DNA of 34,307 nt, taken from Prevotella sp. (lineage in GTDB: Bacteria; Bacteroidota; Bacteroidia; Bacteroidales; Bacteroidaceae). This document shows positions 3,272 through 28,532 of this stretch, in pieces (position 1 is the first letter of the stretch; each line of letters begins with the position of its first letter). The stretch lies in NCBI GenBank assembly GCA_017428925.1, contig JAFRPY010000112.1, positions 1 to 34,307 of the forward strand, given 5' to 3'. The notes under the pieces are model-generated. The model worked only from the letters and a program-made list of their open reading frames with translations, was not told where the DNA came from and did not search any database. Position numbers and translations under genes: made by a program.

Positions 3272-3649
3272 AAATGTAAAGGCCTGACGGCGTGTAAGGC
3301 AGCGGAGCTGCGGGTAAGGCCTAACGGCGTGTAATAATGGTCGTCGCGTTGCTCCTTAAAATTATTCAAAAATCAAATAAAAAATCGTTCAAACATAATT
3401 ACTCACACAGATCTTTACTATCCTCTTCTACGAGTTTAGAGTTTAGTGTTTAGTGTTTAGAGCCAGTTTAATAGTTTAAAGTATTAAGTTTTTGAACCTC
3501 TTGAACGTGTGAAGCACTATTGAACATTGAACTGCGCTTTCGCGCTTTGGCCGACCCGCTAGTTGTTCATTTGAATTGCAGCTTTGCTACCTAACTCGAG
3601 TTTTCGACTAACTATATATAGATTTCTCATATTGTAAAACATAACTCTC
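3272..3649. repeat. Gene-free repeat region before the polysaccharide operon
   Basis: Hairpin units with GTGTAAGG-type linkers lie at 3282-3291 (GCC-TGAC-GGC), 3299-3311 (GCAGC-GGA-GCTGC) and 3319-3328 (GCC-TAAC-GGC). A left half of the GGTCG palindrome follows at 3339-3400, then a CTCACACAG copy at 3402. Heptads (GTTTAGA, GTTTAGT, GTTTAGT, GTTTAGA) cover about 3434-3461, then TTGAAC-linked units, and a right palindrome end GGCCGACC lies at 3549-3556. I see no convincing TAnnTTTG promoter immediately before 3650, although the operon must start here or be read through from upstream. Confidence 0.65.
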
Positions 3650-4733: not shown

Positions 4734-5714
4734 ATGCCTTTAATAACTGTTATCGTCCCCATATACAATGTGGACAGGCTGATGCGAAAGTGCCTCAACT
4801 CCATACTTGATCAAACTTTCCAGGACTTTGAATGTCTATTGATTGATGATGGTAGCAAGGACGGCTCACCTGCTATCTGCGATGAGTATGCGGCAAAGGA
4901 TGTGCGTTTCAAAGCTTTTCATAAACCCAACGGAGGTCTTAGCGATGCCCGCAACTATGGTTTAGAACGAGCTCAAGGCGACTACACCATCTTCTTTGAC
5001 CCCGATGACTGGGTGGATGCCGACTGCTTGAAGGACCTGTATGCGAAAGCGTTGGAGACCGATGCAGATATGGTAATGTGTGACCTGTATTATAATGATC
5101 CCTATCGCCAGGGTTACTGCAAGCAAGAACCGACCAGTTTGGACCACAATGACGTACTTAAGGATATAATTGTCGGTAAGGTCTATGGTTTCACGGTGAC
5201 AAAACTGCTTCGTCGCAGTCTCTATCAACAATACGACTTACAATATCCTGTAGGCATGTATGGCTGTGAGGATCAGTATACGATGTGTAAATTACTGAAG
5301 AACGACGTTAAGATTGCATATTTGCCGAAAGCGTACTATCATTATATGCATTTTGGGAATGATACTCTTTCCAGGCATTACGACGAAACAACCTATCAGC
5401 ATGACTTGCTGATTCGCCAGAAGTTTTGTGATCTGCTATCGGATACAGAATATAAGCAGTTAGCTTTTGATAGTAAATCTGAGTGGATTTTGTATCGAGC
5501 ATTTATGTATGGAAGAAAAGAATATGCCTCAAAGCAGTTTGTCTCTGTTTTCTCAGAATTTGAGGCGTATACCAATAATACCGAACCAGCTTATTTGTCG
5601 TATTTCTATCGCGCTTCTTTGGCTGGGTATTATCAATTTGCAAGATTTGTTTTTGAAGTGCTATTTCAGTCGAAGCAAATCATTAAGAAATTTAAGTGCA
5701 TAATTAAGAGATGA
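4734..5714 (+). CDS. Family 2 glycosyltransferase (GT-A fold)
   Basis: A complete GT2 domain fills about residues 4-215 of 326: VIVPIYN near 7, DDGSKDGS at 38-45, NGGLSDARN near 66-74, the metal-binding FDPDDW near 89-94, and the acceptor-side GCEDQ near 182-186. These enzymes move a sugar from a nucleotide-sugar to the growing lipid-linked oligosaccharide on the cytoplasmic side. The C-terminal 60 residues are amphipathic with a basic end (IIKKFKCIIKR), consistent with membrane association. The stop overlaps the next start in ATGA (5711-5714), so translation of the two is probably coupled. The donor sugar is not predictable. Confidence 0.92.
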   Translation: MPLITVIVPIYNVDRLMRKCLNSILDQTFQDFECLLIDDGSKDGSPAICDEYAAKDVRFKAFHKPNGGLSDARNYGLERAQGDYTIFFDPDDWVDADCLKDLYAKALETDADMVMCDLYYNDPYRQGYCKQEPTSLDHNDVLKDIIVGKVYGFTVTKLLRRSLYQQYDLQYPVGMYGCEDQYTMCKLLKNDVKIAYLPKAYYHYMHFGNDTLSRHYDETTYQHDLLIRQKFCDLLSDTEYKQLAFDSKSEWILYRAFMYGRKEYASKQFVSVFSEFEAYTNNTEPAYLSYFYRASLAGYYQFARFVFEVLFQSKQIIKKFKCIIKR

Positions 5715-6994
5715 AGATTTTTATCGTACAATCACATCTTGGAGGTGGAGGGGCAGAAAGAGTTGGTGTTATGTTGGCTAATGGCTTTTCTCTTCGAGGC
5801 CATGATGTCACGATTGCAACCGATTTAAAAGCAAAGCAAAATTATATACCTTTATCATCTGTTAAAATAGTTAATATTGTTTCATCGAAAAAGAATGTTT
5901 TAATAAAATGGTGTTATGCTATATGGAATTTAAGAAACATATGTGCAGAAAGTAGACCAGATGTAATTATTGGAATAATGCAACTAAGCTCATTTGTTTC
6001 AAAAGTTTCTACCATAGGATTGGGGATTCCTACTATTATGATGGAGCATTACTATTTTGAGAGTCCAAATGGATTGACATCGTTTGAGAAGTTTTGTAAA
6101 TTTTATCTCAATAAAGTATATCCAATAGTTACAGTATTAACATCAGCAGATAAAATACTTGCCGAACAGTCTTTAAAACATATCGTTATTATGCCAAATC
6201 CATTAGCGCTGAAACCTGTGGTTAATAAAGGTGTTAGAAGTAATGTCTTGTTAGCAATAGGACGACTGGATGCTTGGTATTATAAAGGATTTGATGTGCT
6301 AATCAAAAGTTTTGCTAAACTATTGAATGGTTCAAAAGTGGCAGAGCCACGTTCAAGGTTCAAAAGCAATGACATTGCGTTCAAGATAAGAGAAGAAGGG
6401 TGGAAGCTACAGATTGCAGGAACGGGTAGCGAAGAGAGCTTGAATTATTTGAAACAATTATGTAAGGAGAATGGGATAGAGGACTCTGTGGAGTTTCTCG
6501 GGTTTAGGAAGGATGTTGAAAAACTCTATCAAGAGGCTTCTGCCTTTGTACTCAGTAGTCGTTATGAGGCTTTCGGTTTAGTTTTGATTGAAGCAATGAG
6601 CCAGGGATGCGCGTGTATAGCTTGTGATTACAAAGGACGTCAACGAGAAATTATGAGCCCCACCTCGACCCTCCCCAGTTGGGGCGGGGAAAGTTCCGTT
6701 GAAAGCCCGTCTCTCGGAACTCGAAACATGAACCCTGACGCTCGGCTCAGCCGCTTTCGGAGCTATGACGGAGAAAGAACTCAAAACATTCCTGTTGAAG
6801 CGTGCGAAACAGGAATCCTGTGCGAGCCTGATAATGTCAATGCCTTAGCTGATGCTATGACTAAGATGATTACTGACGATGAATATCGTGAAAGCGTTAG
6901 GAAGAATGCGATTGAACGATCAAAATATTACTCGATTGAGAATACAATGGATAGGTGGGAAAAACTTTTAGGCCAAGTTGTAAACAAGAAATGA
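5711..6994 (+). CDS. Family 4 glycosyltransferase carrying two repeat-derived insertions
   Basis: This 427-residue GT-B enzyme starts MKIFIVQSHLGGGGAERVGV, the usual GT4 glycine loop, and has the EX7E catalytic motif at E286/E294 in YEAFGLVLIEAM. The end, GILCEPDN with following helices, is standard. Relatives are nearer 360-380 residues, and the excess is explained by two unusual blocks. Residues about 206-225 come from two tandem 28-nt hairpin units (6330-6385). Residues about 316-361, rich in Ser, Pro, Arg and Gly, come from intergenic-type repeats (6656-6790) placed between QREIM and the GILCEP segment. The frame stays open throughout and the motifs on both sides are intact, so the enzyme may still work with long surface loops. 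It overlaps both neighbours by ATGA and is a paralog of the next gene. Confidence 0.9.
   Translation: MKIFIVQSHLGGGGAERVGVMLANGFSLRGHDVTIATDLKAKQNYIPLSSVKIVNIVSSKKNVLIKWCYAIWNLRNICAESRPDVIIGIMQLSSFVSKVSTIGLGIPTIMMEHYYFESPNGLTSFEKFCKFYLNKVYPIVTVLTSADKILAEQSLKHIVIMPNPLALKPVVNKGVRSNVLLAIGRLDAWYYKGFDVLIKSFAKLLNGSKVAEPRSRFKSNDIAFKIREEGWKLQIAGTGSEESLNYLKQLCKENGIEDSVEFLGFRKDVEKLYQEASAFVLSSRYEAFGLVLIEAMSQGCACIACDYKGRQREIMSPTSTLPSWGGESSVESPSLGTRNMNPDARLSRFRSYDGERTQNIPVEACETGILCEPDNVNALADAMTKMITDDEYRESVRKNAIERSKYYSIENTMDRWEKLLGQVVNKK
6330..6385. repeat. Two tandem 28-nt hairpin units inside the GT4 gene
   Basis: Unit 1 is 6330-6357 and unit 2 is 6358-6385. Both read GTTCAAAA, a hairpin, then GTTCAAG. 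The hairpins are GTGGC-AGA-GCCAC and GCAAT-GAC-ATTGC: different arms, each perfectly paired, in the same frame-open context. The reverse complement (TTGAACG, hairpin, CTTTTGAAC) matches the units of the intergenic array at 15383-15504. Confidence 0.85.
6656..6790. repeat. Intergenic-type repeats inserted in frame in the GT4 gene
   Basis: The first part, 6656-6692 (AGCCCCACCTCGACCCTCCC, then AGTTGGGGCGGGGAAAG), closely matches the intergenic block at 16715-16755. The last part, 6737-6782, is the reverse complement of the TTCTTTCTCCGT...GAAAGCG...CGAGCG element seen at 2073-2122, 2139-2189 and 2602-2650. In between, GTTCCG and CGGAAC (6694-6720) are inverted. The block encodes about 46 residues absent from normal GT4 proteins. 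Confidence 0.75.
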
Positions 6995-8073
6995 AGATTT
7001 TTTTTCTTACCGCATATTTAGGAGCCGGTGGGGCAGAGAGGGTTGTTTCTTTGCTTGCCAATAAGATGTCACAAATGGGGCATGATATTGGTGTTGTCTG
7101 TTTAAAGTATAATGATGTTTTCTATCAGATTGAACCAAATGTCCAATTAGTGTTTCCTATGGACCATTGCAATAATCGTTTATCGGAGTTGTTTTGGTTA
7201 CGAAGATTTCTCAAAGGTCAGAAGCCTGATGTGGTGATTCCATTTACTGAGGGAGTGTATTGTTTCACCATCCTCTCTCTCTTAGGAACGGGAATACCTA
7301 TTATCGCATCGGAACGATTGGATCCCGCAGCCATGTCGCCAACTCGTAAACTCCTGAAGAAGCTGTTGTTACCATACGCAGACTGGCTGGTGGTGCAGAC
7401 GCAGAGCATTAAGGAATACTTTTCGAAAAAGATACAGAAGAAAACTTCAATCATTTATAATCCAGTTGTCACGGAAGTCTTCCGTGAAATTGATAATGGA
7501 CAATTGAAAATTGAAAATGAGGGGAAGCTCAATCGCATAATATCGGTCGGTAGATTGTATCCGCAGAAGAATCAGGAGATGATGATACGGGCATTTGCAA
7601 AGGTTGCAGAAGAATTTCCTGATTGGCAATTGGTGATATATGGGGAGGGGCCGCTTCGAGCAGAGCTCGAGTTTCTGGTTTCTAGTTTCAAATTACAAGA
7701 ACGGGTGTTGCTGCCAGGTCGGACGGAACACGTGATAGAAGAACTGAGGAAATCGAAGATATTCTGTATGTCGAGTGATTACGAAGGAATGAGTAATTCG
7801 ATGATAGAGGCTATTTGTGTTGGATTGCCAATTATTTCCACAAAGGTTTCAGGGACTGAAGATCTAATTAGGGATGAAGAGAATGGACTCCTCGTTGAGA
7901 TTGGGGAAGAAAGCTGTATGGGGGATTGCATGTCAAAACTAATGTCATCCGCTGTTCTTCGAGAAGATATGTCGATTAGAAATAAAAAGCTTGCAGGGCT
8001 ATTCGATATTGATTTTATTGTCAACCAGTGGACAGAATTGATCAAAAAGGTGAAAAATGAATCCGCAAATTAA
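6991..8073 (+). CDS. Family 4 glycosyltransferase
   Basis: I start the protein at ATG 6991 (360 residues), which gives MKIFFLTAYLGAGGAERVVS, aligned with the N-terminus of the previous gene and overlapping its stop by four bases. An in-frame earlier start at 6955 would add 12 unlikely residues. The GT-B signatures are the GAGGAER loop, a VGRLYPQKNQE segment mid-protein, and EX7E in YEGMSNSMIEA. It would transfer a sugar from a nucleotide donor to the lipid-linked chain. Two heptad-repeat tracts lie within it: 7490-7520, encoding EIDNGQLKIENEG, and 7671-7698, encoding FLVSSFKLQ. They sit at the domain linker and a surface position of the C-terminal domain. It overlaps the next gene by 17 nt. 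Confidence 0.92.
   Translation: MKIFFLTAYLGAGGAERVVSLLANKMSQMGHDIGVVCLKYNDVFYQIEPNVQLVFPMDHCNNRLSELFWLRRFLKGQKPDVVIPFTEGVYCFTILSLLGTGIPIIASERLDPAAMSPTRKLLKKLLLPYADWLVVQTQSIKEYFSKKIQKKTSIIYNPVVTEVFREIDNGQLKIENEGKLNRIISVGRLYPQKNQEMMIRAFAKVAEEFPDWQLVIYGEGPLRAELEFLVSSFKLQERVLLPGRTEHVIEELRKSKIFCMSSDYEGMSNSMIEAICVGLPIISTKVSGTEDLIRDEENGLLVEIGEESCMGDCMSKLMSSAVLREDMSIRNKKLAGLFDIDFIVNQWTELIKKVKNESAN
7490..7520. repeat. Coding heptad repeat (TTGATAA/TGGACAA/TTGAAAA x2)
   Basis: Four consecutive 7-nt units, TTGATAA, TGGACAA, TTGAAAA and TTGAAAA (7490-7517), lie in frame in the GT4 gene. The same words occur in noncoding DNA at 17829-17860 and 18219-18254. Confidence 0.75.
7671..7698. repeat. Coding heptad repeat (GTTTCTG/GTTTCTA/GTTTCAA)
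   Basis: Units GTTTCTG, GTTTCTA, GTTTCAA and ATTACAA run from 7671 to 7698 in frame in the GT4 gene. The intergenic run at about 2567-2603 uses the same words. Confidence 0.75.
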
Positions 8074-9796: not shown

Positions 9797-9874
9797 TAGC
9801 GGAGCTGTGTTCAAAAGGCTTTCTGCCATTCAAGATTCAAAGCTTAAATTCGAAGTGAAGGTATTGAAATCTTG
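9797..9874. repeat. Short spacer with a decayed hairpin unit
   Basis: In this otherwise tightly packed operon, a 78-nt gap holds GTTCAAAA-GGC-TTTCT-GCC-ATTCAAG (about 9809-9835) and a following ATTCAAAG. This is one decayed member of the GTTCAA-type hairpin family. No terminator was seen. Confidence 0.55.
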
Positions 9875-10708
9875 ATGAAACTTACAGTTGTAGTTCCTAT
9901 TTATAAAAATAATGATGCCCAGCAATTGCGAGTGTCATTAGATAGTTTACTGCGTCAAACTTTGCTGCCAAATGAGATTCTTGTAGTGGCTGATGGTCCT
10001 GTTTCTGCAGGGCTGGAAAGGGAAGTTGAAAGGTTAAAGGTTAAAGTTCAAAGTTCAAAATTGCCGATTGAAGTAAGCTATCAGAAATTTGAACAAAACG
10101 AGGGACTTGGTGAGGCAATGCGAAAGGCGGTCTTTGTAGCGAAAGGGGATTATATTGCAAGAATGGACGCAGATGACATTTGTCTTCCAAATAGATTTGA
10201 GAAGCAAATGAAATGTTTTGAAGAAGATGCCACTTTGAGTGTGGTAGGAGGCCAGATCGCTGAGTTTGATGGTGATGTGGAGAACATTACAGGAAGGCGT
10301 GTCGTTCCACTAGAACATGAGGAAATAGTGAGTTACATGAAATCGCGCAACGGGATGAACCATGTAACAACGATTCTCAAGAAAAAGGATTTGGTAGATT
10401 CAGGGAACTATCAATCTTTTTTCTTATTAGAAGACTATTATCTATGGGTAAGGATGATTCAGTGTGGATGCAGATTTAAGAATGTCAACGAAGATGTTGT
10501 TCTTGTAAGAGCTGGGAAAGAACAAATGGATAGACGTGGAGGGCTTGAGTATTTTAAGAGACAGTGTGAGGTGTTTAAGTATATGTTAAAAACGGATTAT
10601 ATTACTCTTCCACGCTTTCTGGCAAGCATCATAGAACGAGGAATCGTTCATGTACTTTTGCCTGTATCAATGAGAAGTCATTTCTATAGTGTTTTCTTGA
10701 GAAAGTGA
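9875..10708 (+). CDS. Family 2 glycosyltransferase (AmsE-like)
   Basis: I start at ATG 9875, giving MKLTVVVPIYKNN; a TTG three bases earlier is possible but less likely. GT2 motifs are VVPIY, LVVADGP near 35, NEGLGEAMRKA near 82, ARMDADD near 101, NHVTTILKK near 167 and LEDYYLW near 190. It is the second member of the AmsE-like pair. A 7-nt repeat tract (10031-10065) encodes ERLKVKVQSSKLP in the loop just after the first alpha/beta unit, where the sister gene is shorter (ELDSVIEEYVQKYPELK). The stop overlaps the next start as GTGA. Confidence 0.9.
   Translation: MKLTVVVPIYKNNDAQQLRVSLDSLLRQTLLPNEILVVADGPVSAGLEREVERLKVKVQSSKLPIEVSYQKFEQNEGLGEAMRKAVFVAKGDYIARMDADDICLPNRFEKQMKCFEEDATLSVVGGQIAEFDGDVENITGRRVVPLEHEEIVSYMKSRNGMNHVTTILKKKDLVDSGNYQSFFLLEDYYLWVRMIQCGCRFKNVNEDVVLVRAGKEQMDRRGGLEYFKRQCEVFKYMLKTDYITLPRFLASIIERGIVHVLLPVSMRSHFYSVFLRK
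10031..10065. repeat. Coding heptad repeat (AGGTTAA x2, AGTTCAA x2)
   Basis: Five consecutive 7-nt units, AGGTTAA, AGGTTAA, AGTTCAA, AGTTCAA and AATTGCC, run from 10031 to 10065 in frame in the GT2 gene. The AGTTCAA word is the linker of the TTGAAC-type hairpin arrays read on the other strand. Confidence 0.8.
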
Positions 10709-12714: not shown

Positions 12715-12838
12715 GGGCATGCGCCGTGTAAAGCCCTTCGGGCGGATAAAGGCTAACGGCGTGCATAGCACTGAAGCAAGTTGAGAATCTTTCAGACGTG
12801 TGAAGCCCTTCGAGTGAGTAAGTAAACACGCTTTGCGT
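12696..12838. repeat. Hairpin array with GTGTAAAG linkers
   Basis: Successive hairpins have the arms GCAGC/GCTGC, GGC/GCC, GCCC-TTC-GGGC, GCTAACGGC and GTCT/AGAC-like pairs, then CGCTTTGCG. They are separated by CGTGTAA(A)G-type linkers. The first hairpin lies inside the upstream gene. Units are in sense orientation (GTGTAAAG) relative to that gene. Confidence 0.7.
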
Positions 12839-13030: not shown

Positions 13031-13176
13031 TTTCCCCGTTTCGCTTTGCGCTCGAGCTTGCTCGCTTTCATAACAAAGTGGAGAAAGAAAGCGGCAAAGC
13101 CGAGCGCTCGCCGTAGGCGATTACTTACACGCAACATAGTTGCTTTACACGAGCCAAAGGCTCTTTACATTTTTAG
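13031..13176. repeat. Hairpin units in CTTTACAC orientation
   Basis: Following copy B is a TTTCCCCGTTTCG...GAGAAAGAAAGCGG block related to the 2060-2189 element. Then come hairpins GCC-GTA-GGC, CAAC-ATA-GTTG and AGCC-AAA-GGCT joined by TTACACG and CTTTACACG. These are the reverse complement of the GTGTAAAG linker. The next gene begins 8 nt after the last linker. Confidence 0.65.
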
Positions 13177-14007
13177 ATGACAAAGTCATTGTTCAACTAC
13201 GCCAAGCGCCTGATACGTCCTAGATGGCAGATTGGGATTGTTGAGAATTCGTTGGAAGGGATTGTCAATGGGGAGGAACTGCGGGTGCAATGGCCGGCGA
13301 ATCCTTTTCATGACCGTTGGTTTGCTGATCCGTTTGTACTGTCGGTGAACGGGAATGAGGTGACGCTGCTTGTGGAGGACTTTCGGTATAAGGATGGCAA
13401 GGGACGAATCTCGAGGATTATTGTCGACATGGAGCGGAACTCAATCGTGTCGTGTAAGACGATTTTGGATGGAGGCCATTATAGTTTCCCGGCTATTTTA
13501 AGGAAGGAAGGGAGGATTTTCTTTTATCCGGAGCAGAGCAGACAGGGGAAGTTGGAGTTGTTTGAATATTGTCCTGCAACGGAGACATGCGAGTATGTAG
13601 GGACGCTCAGTGACGAACCGTTGACAGATGCTATAATATATAAAGGTGTCATCTATTCAACACAATTGCCGGAGCCGAATGGAAAAGTACTGAATAGTTT
13701 CTTGTTTCAGGTTTCTTGTTTCAAGTTGGGAAATGAGGAAAAAGAATATTACGTTGAAGAATCTGTTGCACGAAATGCGGGGGATTTCTTTGAGTGTGGA
13801 GGGAAGGTGTATCGGCCTGCACAGGAGTGTAACCGATGGTATGGGAATGCGTTGAGCATACAACTGTATGAGAACGGGGAGTTTAAGGAGGTACGGAGAA
13901 TACCTCGTATGCACACACTGAATAGCTATCAGGGGGTGACGGTGGTGGATAGGAAGATATTTCCGTTCAAGTGGGTGTATCGGTTGCTGCGAAGAACGGA
14001 CAAGTAG
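13177..14007 (+). CDS. Beta-propeller protein of polysaccharide locus (GINT1-N/GH43-like fold)
   Basis: The 276-residue protein shows repeated short beta patterns ending in aromatic or acidic turns: WFADPFVL near 49-56, LLVEDFRYKDGKGRI near 66-80, GGHYSFPAI near 99-107, FFYPEQ near 115-120 and YRPAQECNRWYG near 212. This resembles the five-bladed propeller found in GH43-type glycosidases and in the N-terminal domain of glucosamine inositolphosphorylceramide transferases. In polysaccharide loci such proteins may modify or transfer sugars, but the function here is unknown. No signal peptide is visible, so it is probably cytoplasmic. A heptad tract (13696-13730) encodes SFLFQVSCFKLG. It is bordered on both sides by hairpin arrays. 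Confidence 0.65.
   Translation: MTKSLFNYAKRLIRPRWQIGIVENSLEGIVNGEELRVQWPANPFHDRWFADPFVLSVNGNEVTLLVEDFRYKDGKGRISRIIVDMERNSIVSCKTILDGGHYSFPAILRKEGRIFFYPEQSRQGKLELFEYCPATETCEYVGTLSDEPLTDAIIYKGVIYSTQLPEPNGKVLNSFLFQVSCFKLGNEEKEYYVEESVARNAGDFFECGGKVYRPAQECNRWYGNALSIQLYENGEFKEVRRIPRMHTLNSYQGVTVVDRKIFPFKWVYRLLRRTDK
13696..13730. repeat. Coding heptad repeat (AGTTTCT/TGTTTCA/GGTTTCT/TGTTTCA)
   Basis: Four heptads, AGTTTCT, TGTTTCA, GGTTTCT and TGTTTCA, plus a decayed fifth occupy 13696-13730 in frame. They probably lengthen one loop between propeller strands. Confidence 0.75.
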
Positions 14008-14010
14008 GAG

Positions 14011-14190
14011 GCCCTTCGGGCGTGTAAAGTCCTGCGGACGGGTAAAGCGCAAAGGCGCGTGTAAAGCCTAATGGCGGGTAATGCCCTTCGGGCGGGTAAA
14101 GCGCTAAAGCGCGTGTAAAGTCCTGCGGACGGGTAAAGTTGCTTCGCAACGTGTAAAGCCTGACGGCGTGTGACTTTACACGGATTTATA
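14011..14190. repeat. Nine-unit hairpin array with GTGTAAAG linkers
   Basis: Between 14011 and 14168 I count nine hairpins. Their arms are GCCC-TTC-GGGC, GTCC-TGC-GGAC, GCGC-AAAG-GCGC, GCC-TAAT-GGC, GCCC-TTC-GGGC, GCGC-TAAA-GCGC, GTCC-TGC-GGAC, GTTGC-TTC-GCAAC and GCC-TGAC-GGC. Each is joined by GTGTAAAG or GGGTAAAG. The unit length is about 17-20 nt. A diverged CTCACACAG-type repeat follows at 14174-14201, directly before the next GTG start. Confidence 0.9.
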
Positions 14191-14212: not shown

Positions 14213-15349
14213 GTGAGCAAGAGTGAGATTGCATTTTTGGAGTTGCTGAATGCGGGCCTTTGGGGAAGAGAGGTCCGTGAGGAGATGTTGCGTGATAGCG
14301 ATGTTGACTGGGAGCGGGTGGTGGAACTGGCTCGTCAGCAGACGGTGGTAGGCATAGTCGGCGAGGCGATGTCGCAACTGCCGCGGGGGGTGATGCCTAG
14401 ATCGCTATACCTGCAGGTGTTGAAGGAGGTGATGGAGATTGAGGAGGAGAACAAACGGATGAACACACTGATTCCCATTCTCTTCCGAACATTGGATCAA
14501 TTGGGTGTACAATCATGGCTGCTGAAAGGACAGGGAGTAGCGCAATGCTACGAGAATCCGCTTCGTAGAACGTCTGGTGATATCGATGTTTTTTTTCACA
14601 TAGATGGTGAATATGAAAAAGCACGTGAGGACTTTTTGCGACATCTGAAACCAGAGGATGTGCATAATGATAATCATCAGACGAAAACGCTTGAGTTTGA
14701 ATACAAAGGTATCTATATAGAACTACACGGGCGGATTTTACCGGAGGTGAATAGGCAAAGTAACCGTTATTTTGTAACATTTCAGGAAGAGTGCAAGGGA
14801 GAGAGAGGTATAGAATGGAATGGGGCGATGTTGCCACCCCTGCGTTTTGATGCGGTGTTTATCTTCATGCACATGGTGCGCCACTATTTCGGTGGTGGCA
14901 TCGGACTCAGACAGGTGAGTGACTGGATGAGATATGTACACAAGCATCATCAGGAGATTCAAGAGGAGAAGTTGAAGGAGGATTTGCAGAAGACTGGCTT
15001 ATTCAAGCTTTGGCAGGCTTTCGGATGTATGGCTGTAGAGTGTCTGGGTTGTCCCAGTGAAAGCATGTTTTTCTATACGCCCAGCTTTTCAAAATATGCG
15101 AGACGTTTGCTGAAGTATATCCTGGAGTCGGGAAACTTCGGTTATTATGATGAACGTACGAAGAGTGACTCTCGCTTCTATTTCGTTAGACGCTTTGTGG
15201 CATTTTGGGGACACCTGCAGATGAAGTTGCGTAATTTCATTATGTTTCCTGAGGAGAGCGTGTATGGTATTCCGTCGTTCATTGTGGACGGACTTATGCG
15301 CACGAAGGCGCAAATTGATAATGAAAAATTGAAAATGGATAATTGTTAG
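14213..15349 (+). CDS. Nucleotidyltransferase family protein (PF14907-like)
   Basis: The 378-residue protein starts at GTG 14213. At 105-127 it has the pattern of the uncharacterised NTP_transf_5 family: KGQGVAQCYENP, then RRTSGDIDVFF, in which D123 and D125 would bind metal. ELHGRIL near 172 and HMVRHYFGGGIGLRQVSDWM near 219-238 also match. Such proteins are common in Bacteroidetes polysaccharide clusters and may transfer a nucleotide or cytidylyl-type group, but no substrate is established. The C-terminal residues QIDNEKLKMDNC are encoded by a heptad-repeat tract (15313-15347), and the TAG stop follows immediately. The family therefore probably ended earlier originally. Confidence 0.8.
   Translation: MSKSEIAFLELLNAGLWGREVREEMLRDSDVDWERVVELARQQTVVGIVGEAMSQLPRGVMPRSLYLQVLKEVMEIEEENKRMNTLIPILFRTLDQLGVQSWLLKGQGVAQCYENPLRRTSGDIDVFFHIDGEYEKAREDFLRHLKPEDVHNDNHQTKTLEFEYKGIYIELHGRILPEVNRQSNRYFVTFQEECKGERGIEWNGAMLPPLRFDAVFIFMHMVRHYFGGGIGLRQVSDWMRYVHKHHQEIQEEKLKEDLQKTGLFKLWQAFGCMAVECLGCPSESMFFYTPSFSKYARRLLKYILESGNFGYYDERTKSDSRFYFVRRFVAFWGHLQMKLRNFIMFPEESVYGIPSFIVDGLMRTKAQIDNEKLKMDNC
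15313..15347. repeat. Heptad repeat forming the gene's C-terminus
   Basis: Units AATTGAT, AATGAAA, AATTGAA, AATGGAT and AATTGTT run from 15313 to 15347, in frame, up to the stop codon at 15347-15349. The same words flank the four-helix-bundle gene. Confidence 0.8.
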
Positions 15350-15382: not shown

Positions 15383-15504
15383 TTGAACGGCACGCAGTGT
15401 CTTTTGAACTTTGAACCTCGCGAAGCGTCTTGAACTTTTGAACGGCACGAAGTGTCTTTTGAACGTTGAACGCTGCGAAGCAGCATTTGAACTTTGAACA
15501 TAAA
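15383..15504. repeat. Hairpin array with TTGAAC linkers
   Basis: Four units share TTGAAC(G) on the left and (CTT)TTGAAC on the right. The hairpins are GGCAC-GCA-GTGTC, TCGC-GAA-GCGT, GGCAC-GAA-GTGTC and GCTGC-GAA-GCAGC. The reverse complement matches the two 28-nt units inside the GT4 gene at 6330-6385. The array ends 12 nt before the wecA-like start. Its TTTGAACTTTG spacing resembles Bacteroidetes promoter boxes, but no full TAnnTTTG is present. Confidence 0.85.
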
Positions 15505-16714: not shown

Positions 16715-17082
16715 AGCCCTACCCCGGCCCTCCCCAGTAGGGAGGGAGAAGGGGGGCGTTGCGTGTAAGGCGCTAAAGCGCGGGTAAGGGCCTGAGGCTG
16801 GGTAAGGCAACTGTGTTGCGTGTAAGGCGCTAAAGCGCGAGTAAGGTCCTTCGGACGGGTAAAGCCCTTTGGGCGTGTAAAGCAACTTTGTTGCGTGTAA
16901 GGCGCTGAAGCGCGGGTAAGGGCCTGAGGCCGGGTAAGGCAACTGTGTTGCGAGTAAGGCGCTGAAGCGCGGGTAAGGTCCTGCGGACGGGTAAAGCAAC
17001 TACACGCCTGCGGTGCGGTTCAAGAGTTCAATGCTGCTACGCAGCGTTCAAAAAGTTCAAGAGCCTTTGGCTGTGTAGGCCA
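16715..17082. repeat. Long hairpin array downstream of wecA
   Basis: The region starts with a CCCTACCCCGGCCCTCCCC/AGGGAGGG block (16715-16755). Twelve hairpins follow from 16770 to 16988. Their arms in order are GCGC, GGCC, GCAAC, GCGC, GTCC, GCCC, GCAAC, GCGC, GGCC, GCAAC, GCGC and GTCC, each followed by GNGTAAGG or GGGTAAAG. GCAACTGTGTTGC occurs at 16807 and 16939, and GCAACTTTGTTGC at 16882. After 17010 the linker changes to TTCAA-type with GCTGC-TAC-GCAGC and AGCC-TTT-GGCT. No gene is present; the minus-strand frame across it is a repeat artefact. Confidence 0.92.
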
Positions 17083-17128: not shown

Positions 17129-17263
17129 CTTTTACACGCAACGAAGTTGCTTTACTTGCGCTTTTGCGCTTTACACGGTAGAAGGCCCTTACACGCAGCC
17201 TGCTGCCTTACACGGTTGAAAACCCTTACACGCAGCTCGCTGCTTTTCACGGCGCTTCAGCGC
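17129..17263. repeat. Hairpin array in reverse orientation, 3' of the HAD gene
   Basis: Hairpins CAAC-GAA-GTTG, GCGC-TTTT-GCGC, GCAG-CCT-GCTGC, GCAGC-TC-GCTGC and GGCGC-TTCA-GCGCC are joined by CTTTACACG and CCTTACACG. On the minus strand, in the sense of the HAD gene that ends at 17264, these read GTGTAAAG as in the other arrays. Confidence 0.8.
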
Positions 17264-26251: not shown

Positions 26252-28501
26252 TCAGACGTAGCTGTGCATGCCACCGAGGAAGTAGTTGACACCGAAATAG
26301 GTCATGAGGATGGTGAGGAAAGCAAGCACCATGTAGACGTGGTAGACCATGGGGCGACGGAAGACAGGCAGCGACTGTGTGTGGACGACGACGGCATAGA
26401 CCATGAAGGTGATGAGCGCCCATGTCTCCTTTGGGTCCCAACTCCAGTAGTTTCCCCACGACACATTGGCCCAGATAGCTCCGATGAAGATGCCGAGTCC
26501 CATCGTGGTAAGGGCAGGGTAGAGGAAGATGCGTGAGAGCACTGCCAGTGACTCCATCTGCGTGGCGATGGAGGTTTTCTCTCGGTGACCTCTTAGCTTG
26601 CTGATTCCTTTGAGCAGGAGTGCTACGATGCCGCAGATGAAGGTAAGGCTGACAAGGGCGTATGACATCATGATAATGCTGACGTGGAGCGATAGTAGCG
26701 GCGAGTTCAGGACGGGCATCATGTGGGTAATCTGCGGGTCCATCTGCGAAATGTGGCTGACCAATAGGAAGAAGCCAGAAAGTAGAAATCCGAAGGTGAG
26801 AAGGAGGGAGCTTAGAGTGGAGAGTGGAGAGTATAGAGTGGAGAGGAGGGTGATGGCCATGACGAACCAGGCGGTGATGAGCATGGTCTCATAGCCGTTG
26901 GACATAGGGATGGTACCCTTCGCTATCCAGCGCAAGGCAATGCAAAAGGTGAGGGCGAGGAAAGAAATGAGAAGCAGAATGTTGCCTGTTGTCTCCCATT
27001 TCTTAGAAGATTTCTTCTGGCGTGTCATCATCCAGATACAGCAGAATAATGCAAGAAATCCCAAGGTGAGATTGAACATGAAGAGGATGGTGGCAAAGGG
27101 GATGTGGTTGTAGAGATGTTCAGCTTTGTCCTTGGTAGCCGTGGGCAGCGAGGCTGCTCCGTGTTTCTGCTGATAGTCGCTGATGGTCTTGACAATCTGT
27201 CCGAAATGAGCATAGTTGCCACTGAGTGCATCCTGATAGAGGTTGTTGAAGACGGTTGTGATGTAGGTTGAGTCGGCAGGACTGATGCCGGCAGGCAATG
27301 CATCGGTGGGCGCTATCCACGAAGATGCGTTGGCGGGGAATAGTTTCAATGGCGTGCCACGACGCAGGTCCATAACCAGCGATAGCTTCTCGTCGATCTG
27401 GGCTGCCTGCTTGTGGAATCCGTCCTGCTGGCCGTTGTAGTATTCCTTCAAATATGGGCCGATGATGTAGCCCCCCATGGCTTCGTTGAAGAAGAAGTCG
27501 ACTGAACAATATGTCGGCAGATCGAGTTGGCTCTTCAGGTCGCCACGTTTGACTTTCACAATGGGTTCCTTGCTCCACTCGTCGCCCCAGAAGATGAATC
27601 CCAGCAGCACCTGTGTAGCACTGTATGAGCCGTAATGACGCTTACCATAGAGTTTCTTGGTGAAGTCGAGGGCATAGGTTTCTACGGGACAGATGCGATC
27701 GTTATAAAGAATGTGCAATCGAGCGAAGGCATCGGCCTGCTCACGGGGCAGGGTGGGCGCCGCTGCGCGGCAAGTGAAAAGTGAACAATGAAAAATGAGA
27801 ATAAGGAGGGCGGCACGCTGCAGGAGGGGTGAGCGCAGCAGGCGGCGGAAGGTGCCGCGAGGATCGATGAGCATGTAGACGAGTGAGAAGAAGAGCAGGG
27901 CATAGCCAACGTAGGTGACGGGAATGCCCCAAGGGTCAGCATTCATGGCGAGCACGCTGCCACGTTGGTCTTCATCGTAGCTGCTCTGGTAGAGACGGTA
28001 GCCACGATGCGAGAAGATGTTGTTCATCGACACACGGGCCTCAGTCTGCTGCTGACCTTCGATGATGGTAAAGTGTGTTTCGTAGTCAGCAGCAGCCTGA
28101 GTGCCCTCGTGGTAGATGATGTTAAAGCTTTCGAGACGCAGTTGGAATGGCAAGTGAGCCACGCGCATGCCCGTCTCGGTTGCGGCTTCGTAGTATTCGT
28201 CGGTGGTCACACCCATTCGCAGGTGGATAACGCCTTGCTTCGATGTGAGATGGGTGAGTAACGCTCCGGCGAGAATTAGCACAAACGAAGCATGAAGAAG
28301 AAGAATTGGCCATCGACGCATGCGCCGCTTTACAATCCAGGCTACTCCGAATGCTGCCAATAGTGCCCACAGCAGCGAGAACCACCAGGCTCCATAGATG
28401 TGCTGAAGTGCAAAGTCTCGTCCGTAGCTGTGTTCTACGAATGTAGCCCCTCCGAGTACAATGACAATTAGAGCGTAGAGGGCAATGATAATCTTCTTCA
28501 T
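26252..28501 (-). CDS. ccsBA: Fused cytochrome c biogenesis protein CcsBA (ResB-ResC)
   Basis: I start at ATG 28501 (749 residues, MKKIIIALYALIVIVLGG). An upstream TTG (28522) is possible. The N-terminal half is CcsB/ResB-like: transmembrane helices near 1-90, then a large periplasmic domain. The C-terminal half is CcsA/ResC with the haem-handling motif WGNYWSWDPKETW near 690 and flanking histidines (LHVSIIMM, VVVHTQSL). System II moves haem out and attaches it to CxxCH motifs. The upstream di-heme oxidoreductase gene, 34 nt away, is its likely client. Heptad-repeat tracts lie in two places within the gene: 27772-27806 (LILIFHCSLFT) and 26807-26848 (LSTLYSPLSTLSSLL). Both fall in hydrophobic segments and keep the frame. 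Confidence 0.9.
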   Translation of the reverse strand: MKKIIIALYALIVIVLGGATFVEHSYGRDFALQHIYGAWWFSLLWALLAAFGVAWIVKRRMRRWPILLLHASFVLILAGALLTHLTSKQGVIHLRMGVTTDEYYEAATETGMRVAHLPFQLRLESFNIIYHEGTQAAADYETHFTIIEGQQQTEARVSMNNIFSHRGYRLYQSSYDEDQRGSVLAMNADPWGIPVTYVGYALLFFSLVYMLIDPRGTFRRLLRSPLLQRAALLILIFHCSLFTCRAAAPTLPREQADAFARLHILYNDRICPVETYALDFTKKLYGKRHYGSYSATQVLLGFIFWGDEWSKEPIVKVKRGDLKSQLDLPTYCSVDFFFNEAMGGYIIGPYLKEYYNGQQDGFHKQAAQIDEKLSLVMDLRRGTPLKLFPANASSWIAPTDALPAGISPADSTYITTVFNNLYQDALSGNYAHFGQIVKTISDYQQKHGAASLPTATKDKAEHLYNHIPFATILFMFNLTLGFLALFCCIWMMTRQKKSSKKWETTGNILLLISFLALTFCIALRWIAKGTIPMSNGYETMLITAWFVMAITLLSTLYSPLSTLSSLLLTFGFLLSGFFLLVSHISQMDPQITHMMPVLNSPLLSLHVSIIMMSYALVSLTFICGIVALLLKGISKLRGHREKTSIATQMESLAVLSRIFLYPALTTMGLGIFIGAIWANVSWGNYWSWDPKETWALITFMVYAVVVHTQSLPVFRRPMVYHVYMVLAFLTILMTYFGVNYFLGGMHSYV
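26807..26848. repeat. Coding heptad repeat in ccsBA (AGAGTGG x3 and variants)
   Basis: GGAGCTT, AGAGTGG, AGAGTGG, AGAGTAT, AGAGTGG and AGAGGAG run from 26807 to 26848. On the coding strand this gives the repeated peptide LSTLYSPLSTLSSL in a membrane segment. Confidence 0.75.
27772..27806. repeat. Coding heptad repeat in ccsBA (AAGTGAA x2, CAATGAA, AAATGAG)
   Basis: AAGTGAA, AAGTGAA, CAATGAA, AAATGAG and AATAAGG occupy 27772-27806. They encode FHCSLFT and neighbours on the minus strand, just after the third predicted membrane segment group. Confidence 0.7.
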
Positions 28502-28514
28502 GTTTCGCTTGTAT

Positions 28515-28532
28515 TTCCGCAATAATGCGGAA
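28515..28532. other. Small hairpin between the oxidoreductase and ccsBA
   Basis: TTCCGCA (28515-28521) pairs with TGCGGAA (28526-28532) around ATAA, in the 34-nt gap between the two genes. It is too weak for a terminator and may shape the ribosome-binding region. Confidence 0.5.

Follow-up and report, generated by a model that had tools for sequence, protein, structure and literature searches.

The window analysed here, 34,307 nt in length, is contig C92 of bin G000 (Prevotella sp., GCA_017428925.1, JAFRPY010000112.1). It carries a glycosyltransferase gene with two in-frame repeat inserts, and further repeats lie in frame in two other genes:

5711-6994, plus strand: GT4 glycosyltransferase gene, 427 aa, with two in-frame repeat inserts (ORF, PF00534, homolog alignments)
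6330-6357, plus strand: hairpin unit 1, GTTCAAAAGTGGCAGAGCCACGTTCAAG = GTTCAAA + AGTGGCAGAGCCAC + GTTCAAG (sequence)
6358-6385, plus strand: hairpin unit 2, GTTCAAAAGCAATGACATTGCGTTCAAG = GTTCAAA + AGCAATGACATTGC + GTTCAAG (sequence)
~6655-6815, plus strand: second in-frame insert of the same GT4 gene, borders approximate (homolog alignment)
6656-6691, plus strand: dispersed family AGCCCCACC..CCTCCCCAGT..GGGG, in the second insert
6739-6782, plus strand: dispersed family CGCTCGGCT..CGCTTTCG..CGGAGAAAGAACTC, in the second insert
7485-7518, plus strand: AATTGAAAATTGAAAAT-type dispersed repeat, in frame in the next GT4-type gene (6991-8073)
7667-7699, plus strand: AGTTTCTGGTTTCTAGTTTC-type dispersed repeat, in frame in gene 6991-8073
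10025-10059, plus strand: five heptamers (GTTGAAA GGTTAAA GGTTAAA GTTCAAA GTTCAAA), in frame in the GT2 gene 9872-10708

Two repeat-bearing loops in a glycosyltransferase

The protein encoded at 5711-6994 scores as a group-1 glycosyltransferase (PF00534 at 5e-32 in Pfam) and its 427-aa ORF is unbroken, as expected from the preliminary description, which held the frame and the glycosyltransferase character to be intact. The two 28-nt units described there, with unlike and perfectly paired arms, were confirmed in the sequence at 6330-6385. Each has a perfect 5-bp stem and a 3-nt loop, the arms differ between the two, and they code for residues ~207-225.

We have aligned the protein with 11 homolog loci (L002-L012), two of which (L005 and L011) seem to be one gene, leaving 10 distinct homologs. 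The residues proved to be an in-frame addition, present in 0/10 of these. None of the 10 distinct homologs aligned supplied the counter-evidence named in the preliminary description, namely the same residues in distant species. Loop 1, which holds the units, comprises 47 residues here and 27-34 in the homologs. Counted by codons, the two nearest homologs, L002 and L010 (the locus of the uncultured Prevotellaceae bacterium RUG178), have 33 residues, the gain in the window being 14 residues or 42 nt; the excess over most other homologs is 15-20 residues. Two units amount to 56 nt, and the proposed insertion with exact unit borders was therefore not supported. The loop of L010 reads GTTCAAG GTTTAAA GTCTAAG GTTCAAG, that is, plain heptamers, and because these are already there, the hairpins may have arisen later, in a loop that had long borne repeats.

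Loop 2, which holds the second insert and does not figure in the preliminary description, is 71 residues long here, 24 in 8 of the 10 distinct homologs, 42 in L010 and 77 in L009, a paralog on contig C48 of G000 with yet other sequence at the place of the second insert. Compared with the PDB chains 6eji_A and 2jjm_A, 47-48 more residues separate the aligned blocks. Similar copies of the family at 6656-6691 occur at window 16715-16750 and in L156, L025, L146, L139, L024 and L160, and those of the family at 6739-6782 in L152, L141, L023, L143, L149, L148, L155 and L160. Loop 2 of L010 holds GTTCAAA GTTTAAT GTTCAAA GTTCAAA. With heptamers in L010 and other families in the window, either both loops would have been repeat-bearing before the split or uptake would have happened twice. 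Judging from this comparison, the repeat content of the GT4 loops appears to have changed since the window and L010 genes, whose products are ~51% identical, parted.

A strict whole-window BLAST for in-gene repeats returned nothing. Gene-by-gene BLAST of 29 ORFs flagged 5711-6994, 6991-8073, 13177-14007, 14213-15349 and 26252-28522, and left the GT2 heptamers unflagged. In gene 6991-8073, the Pfam alignment passes the repeat at 7667-7699 without a large gain in length.

Variable hairpins on GTTCAA linkers

Related stretches lie between genes of the window:

3492-3525, minus strand: intergenic GTTCAA-GTTCAA stretch, stem <4 bp
15383-15499, minus strand: intergenic GTTCAA-hairpin array, between an NTP_transf_5 gene and a Glycos_transf_4 gene
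17018-17051, plus strand: intergenic GTTCAA-hairpin unit

The likeness drawn earlier between the GT4 units and the minus-strand array held for the linkers, which are the same, and failed for the arms, which differ and are not all perfect; two of the intervals of this array pass a 4-bp stem test. We have examined GTTCAA-GTTCAA intervals of 17-24 nt for stems of at least 4 bp, with 300 base shuffles of the intervals for comparison. Such a stem was present in 28 of 34 intervals in the five G000 stretches (the window and L023-L026; shuffles mean 2.1, maximum 7), in 52/55 in the RUG178 stretches examined (mean 4.2, maximum 11) and in 22/37 in those of G047 (mean 1.5, maximum 6). The 28 stem-bearing G000 intervals contained 14 distinct arms. 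Because the arms differ, the linker can be taken as the fixed part and the palindrome as the variable part.

The linkers are often heptamers, also 8-9 nt, and the modules between them consist of a 4-5-bp stem with, usually, a 3-nt loop. GTTCAA direct repeats thereby flank each hairpin, and the insert borders relative to homologs are not sharp. Five of the six frames of the GTTCAA linker have no stop, the sixth reading TGA, which should make survival inside genes easier; all five stop-free frames are used by in-gene arrays. The rsmD in-gene array of contig C106 and RUG178 mixes GTTCAA with GTGTAA/GGGTAA linkers, the latter being the linker of the other main hairpin family of the window. Rfam, run on the window at gathering scores, gave no match.

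A second linker family, GTGTAAAG/GGGTAAAG, has variable hairpins and a similar build, and is found at window 12725-12821, 13124-13162, 14003-14171, 16758-17017 and 17132-17196.

Host genes, insert-free relatives and array turnover

Matches to PF03602 are taken here to be RsmD, those to PF01131/PF01751 presumably represent TopB, and those to PF02719 presumably CapD. The G000 stretches fetched contained 12 clusters with a stem of at least 4 bp. Four of these lie in frame inside Pfam-supported genes (GT4, topoisomerase-type, RsmD-type and NTP_transf_5), one lies between the halves of a CapD-like gene, and seven are not within a Pfam-supported domain. Pfam matched no ORF over the array at L023 4986 or over that at L024 8624; the L026 array, which precedes the AIRC domain, was not counted as in-gene.

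For RUG178, the matches listed among 334 pattern hits (control 26) gave 22 arrays in 17 stretches, and 2 of these 22 are in frame in Pfam-supported genes: one between DUF4011 and AAA_11, the other inside DUF6080, with profile positions 4-131 before the array and the match running on to 444 after it. The RsmD and topoisomerase genes of RUG178 bear arrays as well. Two further candidates were set aside, L146 with its array before the GH130 domain and near an uncertain start, and L151 with its array after the HNH domain at a contig end. Pfam matched none of the array ORFs scanned in L140, L142, L143, L144, L149, L152 and L153, and the single match in L145 fell below the cut-off. Two genomes thus have repeats in frame in several of their genes. 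Such entry is not universal, because in G047, which has similar units, 22 of 23 hairpin units (17 stretches among the matches listed) are outside ORFs of at least 100 aa, the remaining one being near an ORF start.

The CapD-like polysaccharide gene (L024 12370-14426, contig C106) is split by a GTTCAA array beside GAGAGAG-type repeats, its halves matching PF02719 profile positions 1-157 and 159-291 in different frames. Such a gene, out of frame across its array, would also fit regulated switching, that is, phase variation in which slippage of a 7-nt linker shifts the frame and turns surface-polysaccharide genes off and on. Several hosts are indeed of polysaccharide type (GT4, GT2, CapD-like), and a 7-nt linker joins the two GT4 units. 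Yet the hosts also include RsmD, topoisomerase and AAA-type genes, the only steps seen in the topoisomerase and NTP_transf_5 arrays are multiples of three (9, 18, 21 and 27), and the GT4 array, with few tandem identical heptamers, should slip slowly. Phase variation of surface-polysaccharide genes is possible for some hosts; as an account of the inserts at large we think it improbable.

Linker spacing was a multiple of three in 17 of 27 cases in genes and in 55 of 128 elsewhere (p = 0.09), with the CapD-like array set apart, gene regions assigned by hand and an "elsewhere" class that may include coding sequence. Codon-phase selection on linker spacing was rejected on this result.

Both the RsmD-type and the topoisomerase gene are present in two copies on different contigs of G000, which indicates a mixed bin of at least two related genomes. 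The C38 topoisomerase shows 97% protein identity to that of RUG178 and the C106 RsmD 91%, so that these contigs would come from a close relative of RUG178. Contig C92 may have the same origin, to judge by repeat families in common. A mixed bin could also produce inserts as assembly artefacts. However, RUG178, a separate genome record, shares the topoisomerase array and has an RsmD array that is related, and genome G172 has a shorter topoisomerase array; we regard an artefact as very improbable.

The sites have insert-free relatives as well as insert-bearing close ones. The RsmD search matched 183 of 200 genomes, and of the 29 other loci fetched and compared, 28 join both sides of the insert directly; G172, the closest genome by this search, carries an insert there too, but a different one. 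The NTP_transf_5 loop measures 76 residues. Of 29 homologs fetched, 22 have 13-35 residues there and seven did not fit the pattern. In 32 topoisomerase loci, loop 1 ranges over 7-44 residues and loop 2 over 18-44. At one and the same topoisomerase codon there are four hairpin units in C38 and RUG178, a shorter array of one unit in a third genome, G172, and none in G047.

We have compared codons between C38 and RUG178. Outside the inserts, the topoisomerase genes had 5 nonsynonymous and 74 synonymous codon differences (673 codons), whereas the two inserts had 7 and 6 (70 codons; Fisher p = 1.1e-4), in raw counts from one gene with 13 differing insert codons. The GTTCAA array alone accounted for 4 nonsynonymous and 2 synonymous differences (p = 8e-4), and the second insert, of another family, for 3 and 4 (p = 0.016). 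For RsmD, C106 and RUG178 differed outside the insert by 1 nonsynonymous and 14 synonymous codons (181 codons). These counts place the RsmD and topoisomerase genes under constraint and the topoisomerase inserts under much less. GT4 itself, for which no strain pair was found, would likewise carry its inserts as nearly neutral.

Across the topoisomerase loci of the genus (L032-L061), the two loops hold unlike low-complexity peptides in many species, SRDSRNSRDSR, SPNPSKGGEG and SENSENSE being examples.

That unlike low-complexity peptides fill two topoisomerase loops in many of the 32 loci could mean that the inserts are useful, a disordered loop being added to many proteins under selection. Against this, the nonsynonymous to synonymous ratio is 7:6 in the inserts and 5:74 in the rest, the residues differ by gene and by frame, and relatives without the inserts exist. 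We consider selection for a useful loop unlikely. Most likely the inserts do nothing useful: repeat DNA would be translated since the linker is mostly stop-free and loops are tolerant. Translation of the inserts and their position on the surface of the folds are expected on this account.

Arrays also differ in length between close relatives. Around rsmD, outside the gene, pieces of 58, 31, 19, 17, 15 and 12 nt differ between C106 and RUG178, and the 58- and 12-nt ones contain GTTCAA units; array-sized indels are among the differences. Inside rsmD the net difference is 15 nt. Turnover does not affect every in-gene array, as the topoisomerase array has equal length in C38 and RUG178.

An ordered block is common, in inverted orientation, to the rsmD gene and a nearby spacer array. 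In RUG178, 122 nt of unlike hairpins in the rsmD insert match the upstream intergenic array inverted, in the same order and at 94%; in C106, 84 nt of the rsmD insert match at 90%. The RUG178 pair in L160 is arranged as follows:

1831-2112: rsmD insert
1147-1267: other copy, inverted relative to the insert, ~0.6 kb away

We read this shared block, together with the mixed linkers of the in-gene array, as a probable sign that blocks are copied from one array to another, in either direction, through recombination or template switching and that duplication follows.

A candidate for the copying agent is a tyrosine transposase of the Y1 (RAYT/IS200-like) type that would recognise the hairpins, making the units REP-type mobile elements. 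The dispersed hairpin units, their fixed flanking sequence and their occurrence in both orientations fit such an origin, and Y1_Tnp matches are present in G000, RUG178, G172, G059 and G033. However, a GTTCAA..GTTCAA unit was found in the flanks examined of 0/12 Y1_Tnp loci (11 over cut-off), and locus L030 shows another repeat at its ends. Moreover, the pattern hits in G047, G008 and G019 are well above the control (247 vs 82, 94 vs 8 and 65 vs 10) and these genomes gave no Y1_Tnp match, although, being 90-92% complete, they may have had a Y1 gene missed. The arms also vary from unit to unit. Y1 transposases are thus unlikely as the copying agent, and a REP-type mobile element is an unlikely explanation of the units.

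Origin of the inserts and relation to known repeats

We consider it likely that the inserts are near-neutral coding repeats, akin to REPs and to Rickettsia palindromic elements (RPEs), which spread by block copying, gain and lose units, and are kept where the frame survives. The units would be a dispersed repeat family of this Prevotella lineage, with arrays mainly intergenic. Blocks of an array would be copied between spacers and genes, also inverted, and the arrays would then gain or lose units through recombination or through slippage during replication. A copy that leaves the frame intact at a residue-tolerant place could persist as nearly neutral peptide, and copies not so placed would break the gene or be lost.

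More tentatively, and with considerable doubt, the units could form a linker-defined repeat class, in which interchangeable hairpin modules on GTTCAA/GTGTAA-type linkers are copied as ordered multi-unit blocks, inverted too, between neighbouring intergenic arrays and coding loops. Spacers would then supply new sequence to the loops of housekeeping enzymes, and different families would replace one another there with time.

The kind of element is already known: RPEs read in frame in Rickettsia, and REPs within genes of other bacteria, are in print. RPEs are described as palindromic repeats ~105-150 bp long that form long stem-loops and end in inverted repeats, both intergenic and in frame in conserved protein genes, and one RPE-bearing enzyme that was tested stayed active (PMC2229807, PMC10969869). 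The parallel with RPEs drawn in the preliminary description stands in so far as the Prevotella units are likewise palindromic, intergenic and in frame in conserved genes. It fails in unit size, variable arms and tandem linkers: the Prevotella units are of 21-28 nt with one small hairpin each, far below the size of RPEs, and their hairpins, with varying arms, form tandem series on GTTCAA linkers at a spacing of ~18-22 nt.

Intragenic GTAG/CGTC REPs are reported as small stem-loops, single, paired or grouped, in functionally unrelated ORFs, to which they contribute 20-30 and up to 43-82 residues; for CGTC repeats, Bacteroidetes are one of the phyla reported (PMC3733652). The text of that REP paper holds no mention of Prevotella. 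Unlike these REPs, the 21 perfect units listed, read by eye, all (21/21) have a stem foot without GTAG or CGTC, the flanks are GTTCAA, in one array mixed with GTGTAA/GGGTAA, and no RAYT gene is linked, given the flanks of the Y1_Tnp loci described above. Identity with either RPEs or GTAG/CGTC REPs was ruled out by the features tested. The MITEs ERIC/RU-1 and Correia are dispersed short repeats that occur as in-frame fusions within genes (PMC2229807); the Prevotella units share these properties, but are much shorter.

As the preliminary description supposed, such elements appear to be undescribed in Prevotella: no report was found in the open-access literature, a coverage outside which most subscription journals fall. 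What looks new is the combination: hairpins that vary while their linkers stay fixed, several unrelated families using the same loops, and ordered inverted blocks common to gene and spacer.

In-frame palindromic repeats are most familiar from Rickettsia and from certain bacteria rich in REPs; Prevotella offers a case with close relatives at hand, in which insertion, expansion, block copying and tolerance can be traced directly in the rsmD- and topoisomerase-type genes. How intergenic repeats turn into protein sequence hence becomes testable, and such loops should not be taken for functional domains.

The window contains other repeats. At 1-312 and 749-1093, repeats spaced ~117-120 nt have a variable hairpin beside a more constant A+T-rich part. 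The GAAAGCGCCCCTACGGGTCGAGCGGAGA repeats at 2073-2188 and 2602-2651 appear to be related, in reverse orientation, to a portion of the second GT4 insert. At the contig end, 34234-34307 is an inverted repeat whose 30-bp arms are 97% complementary and stand 14 nt apart.
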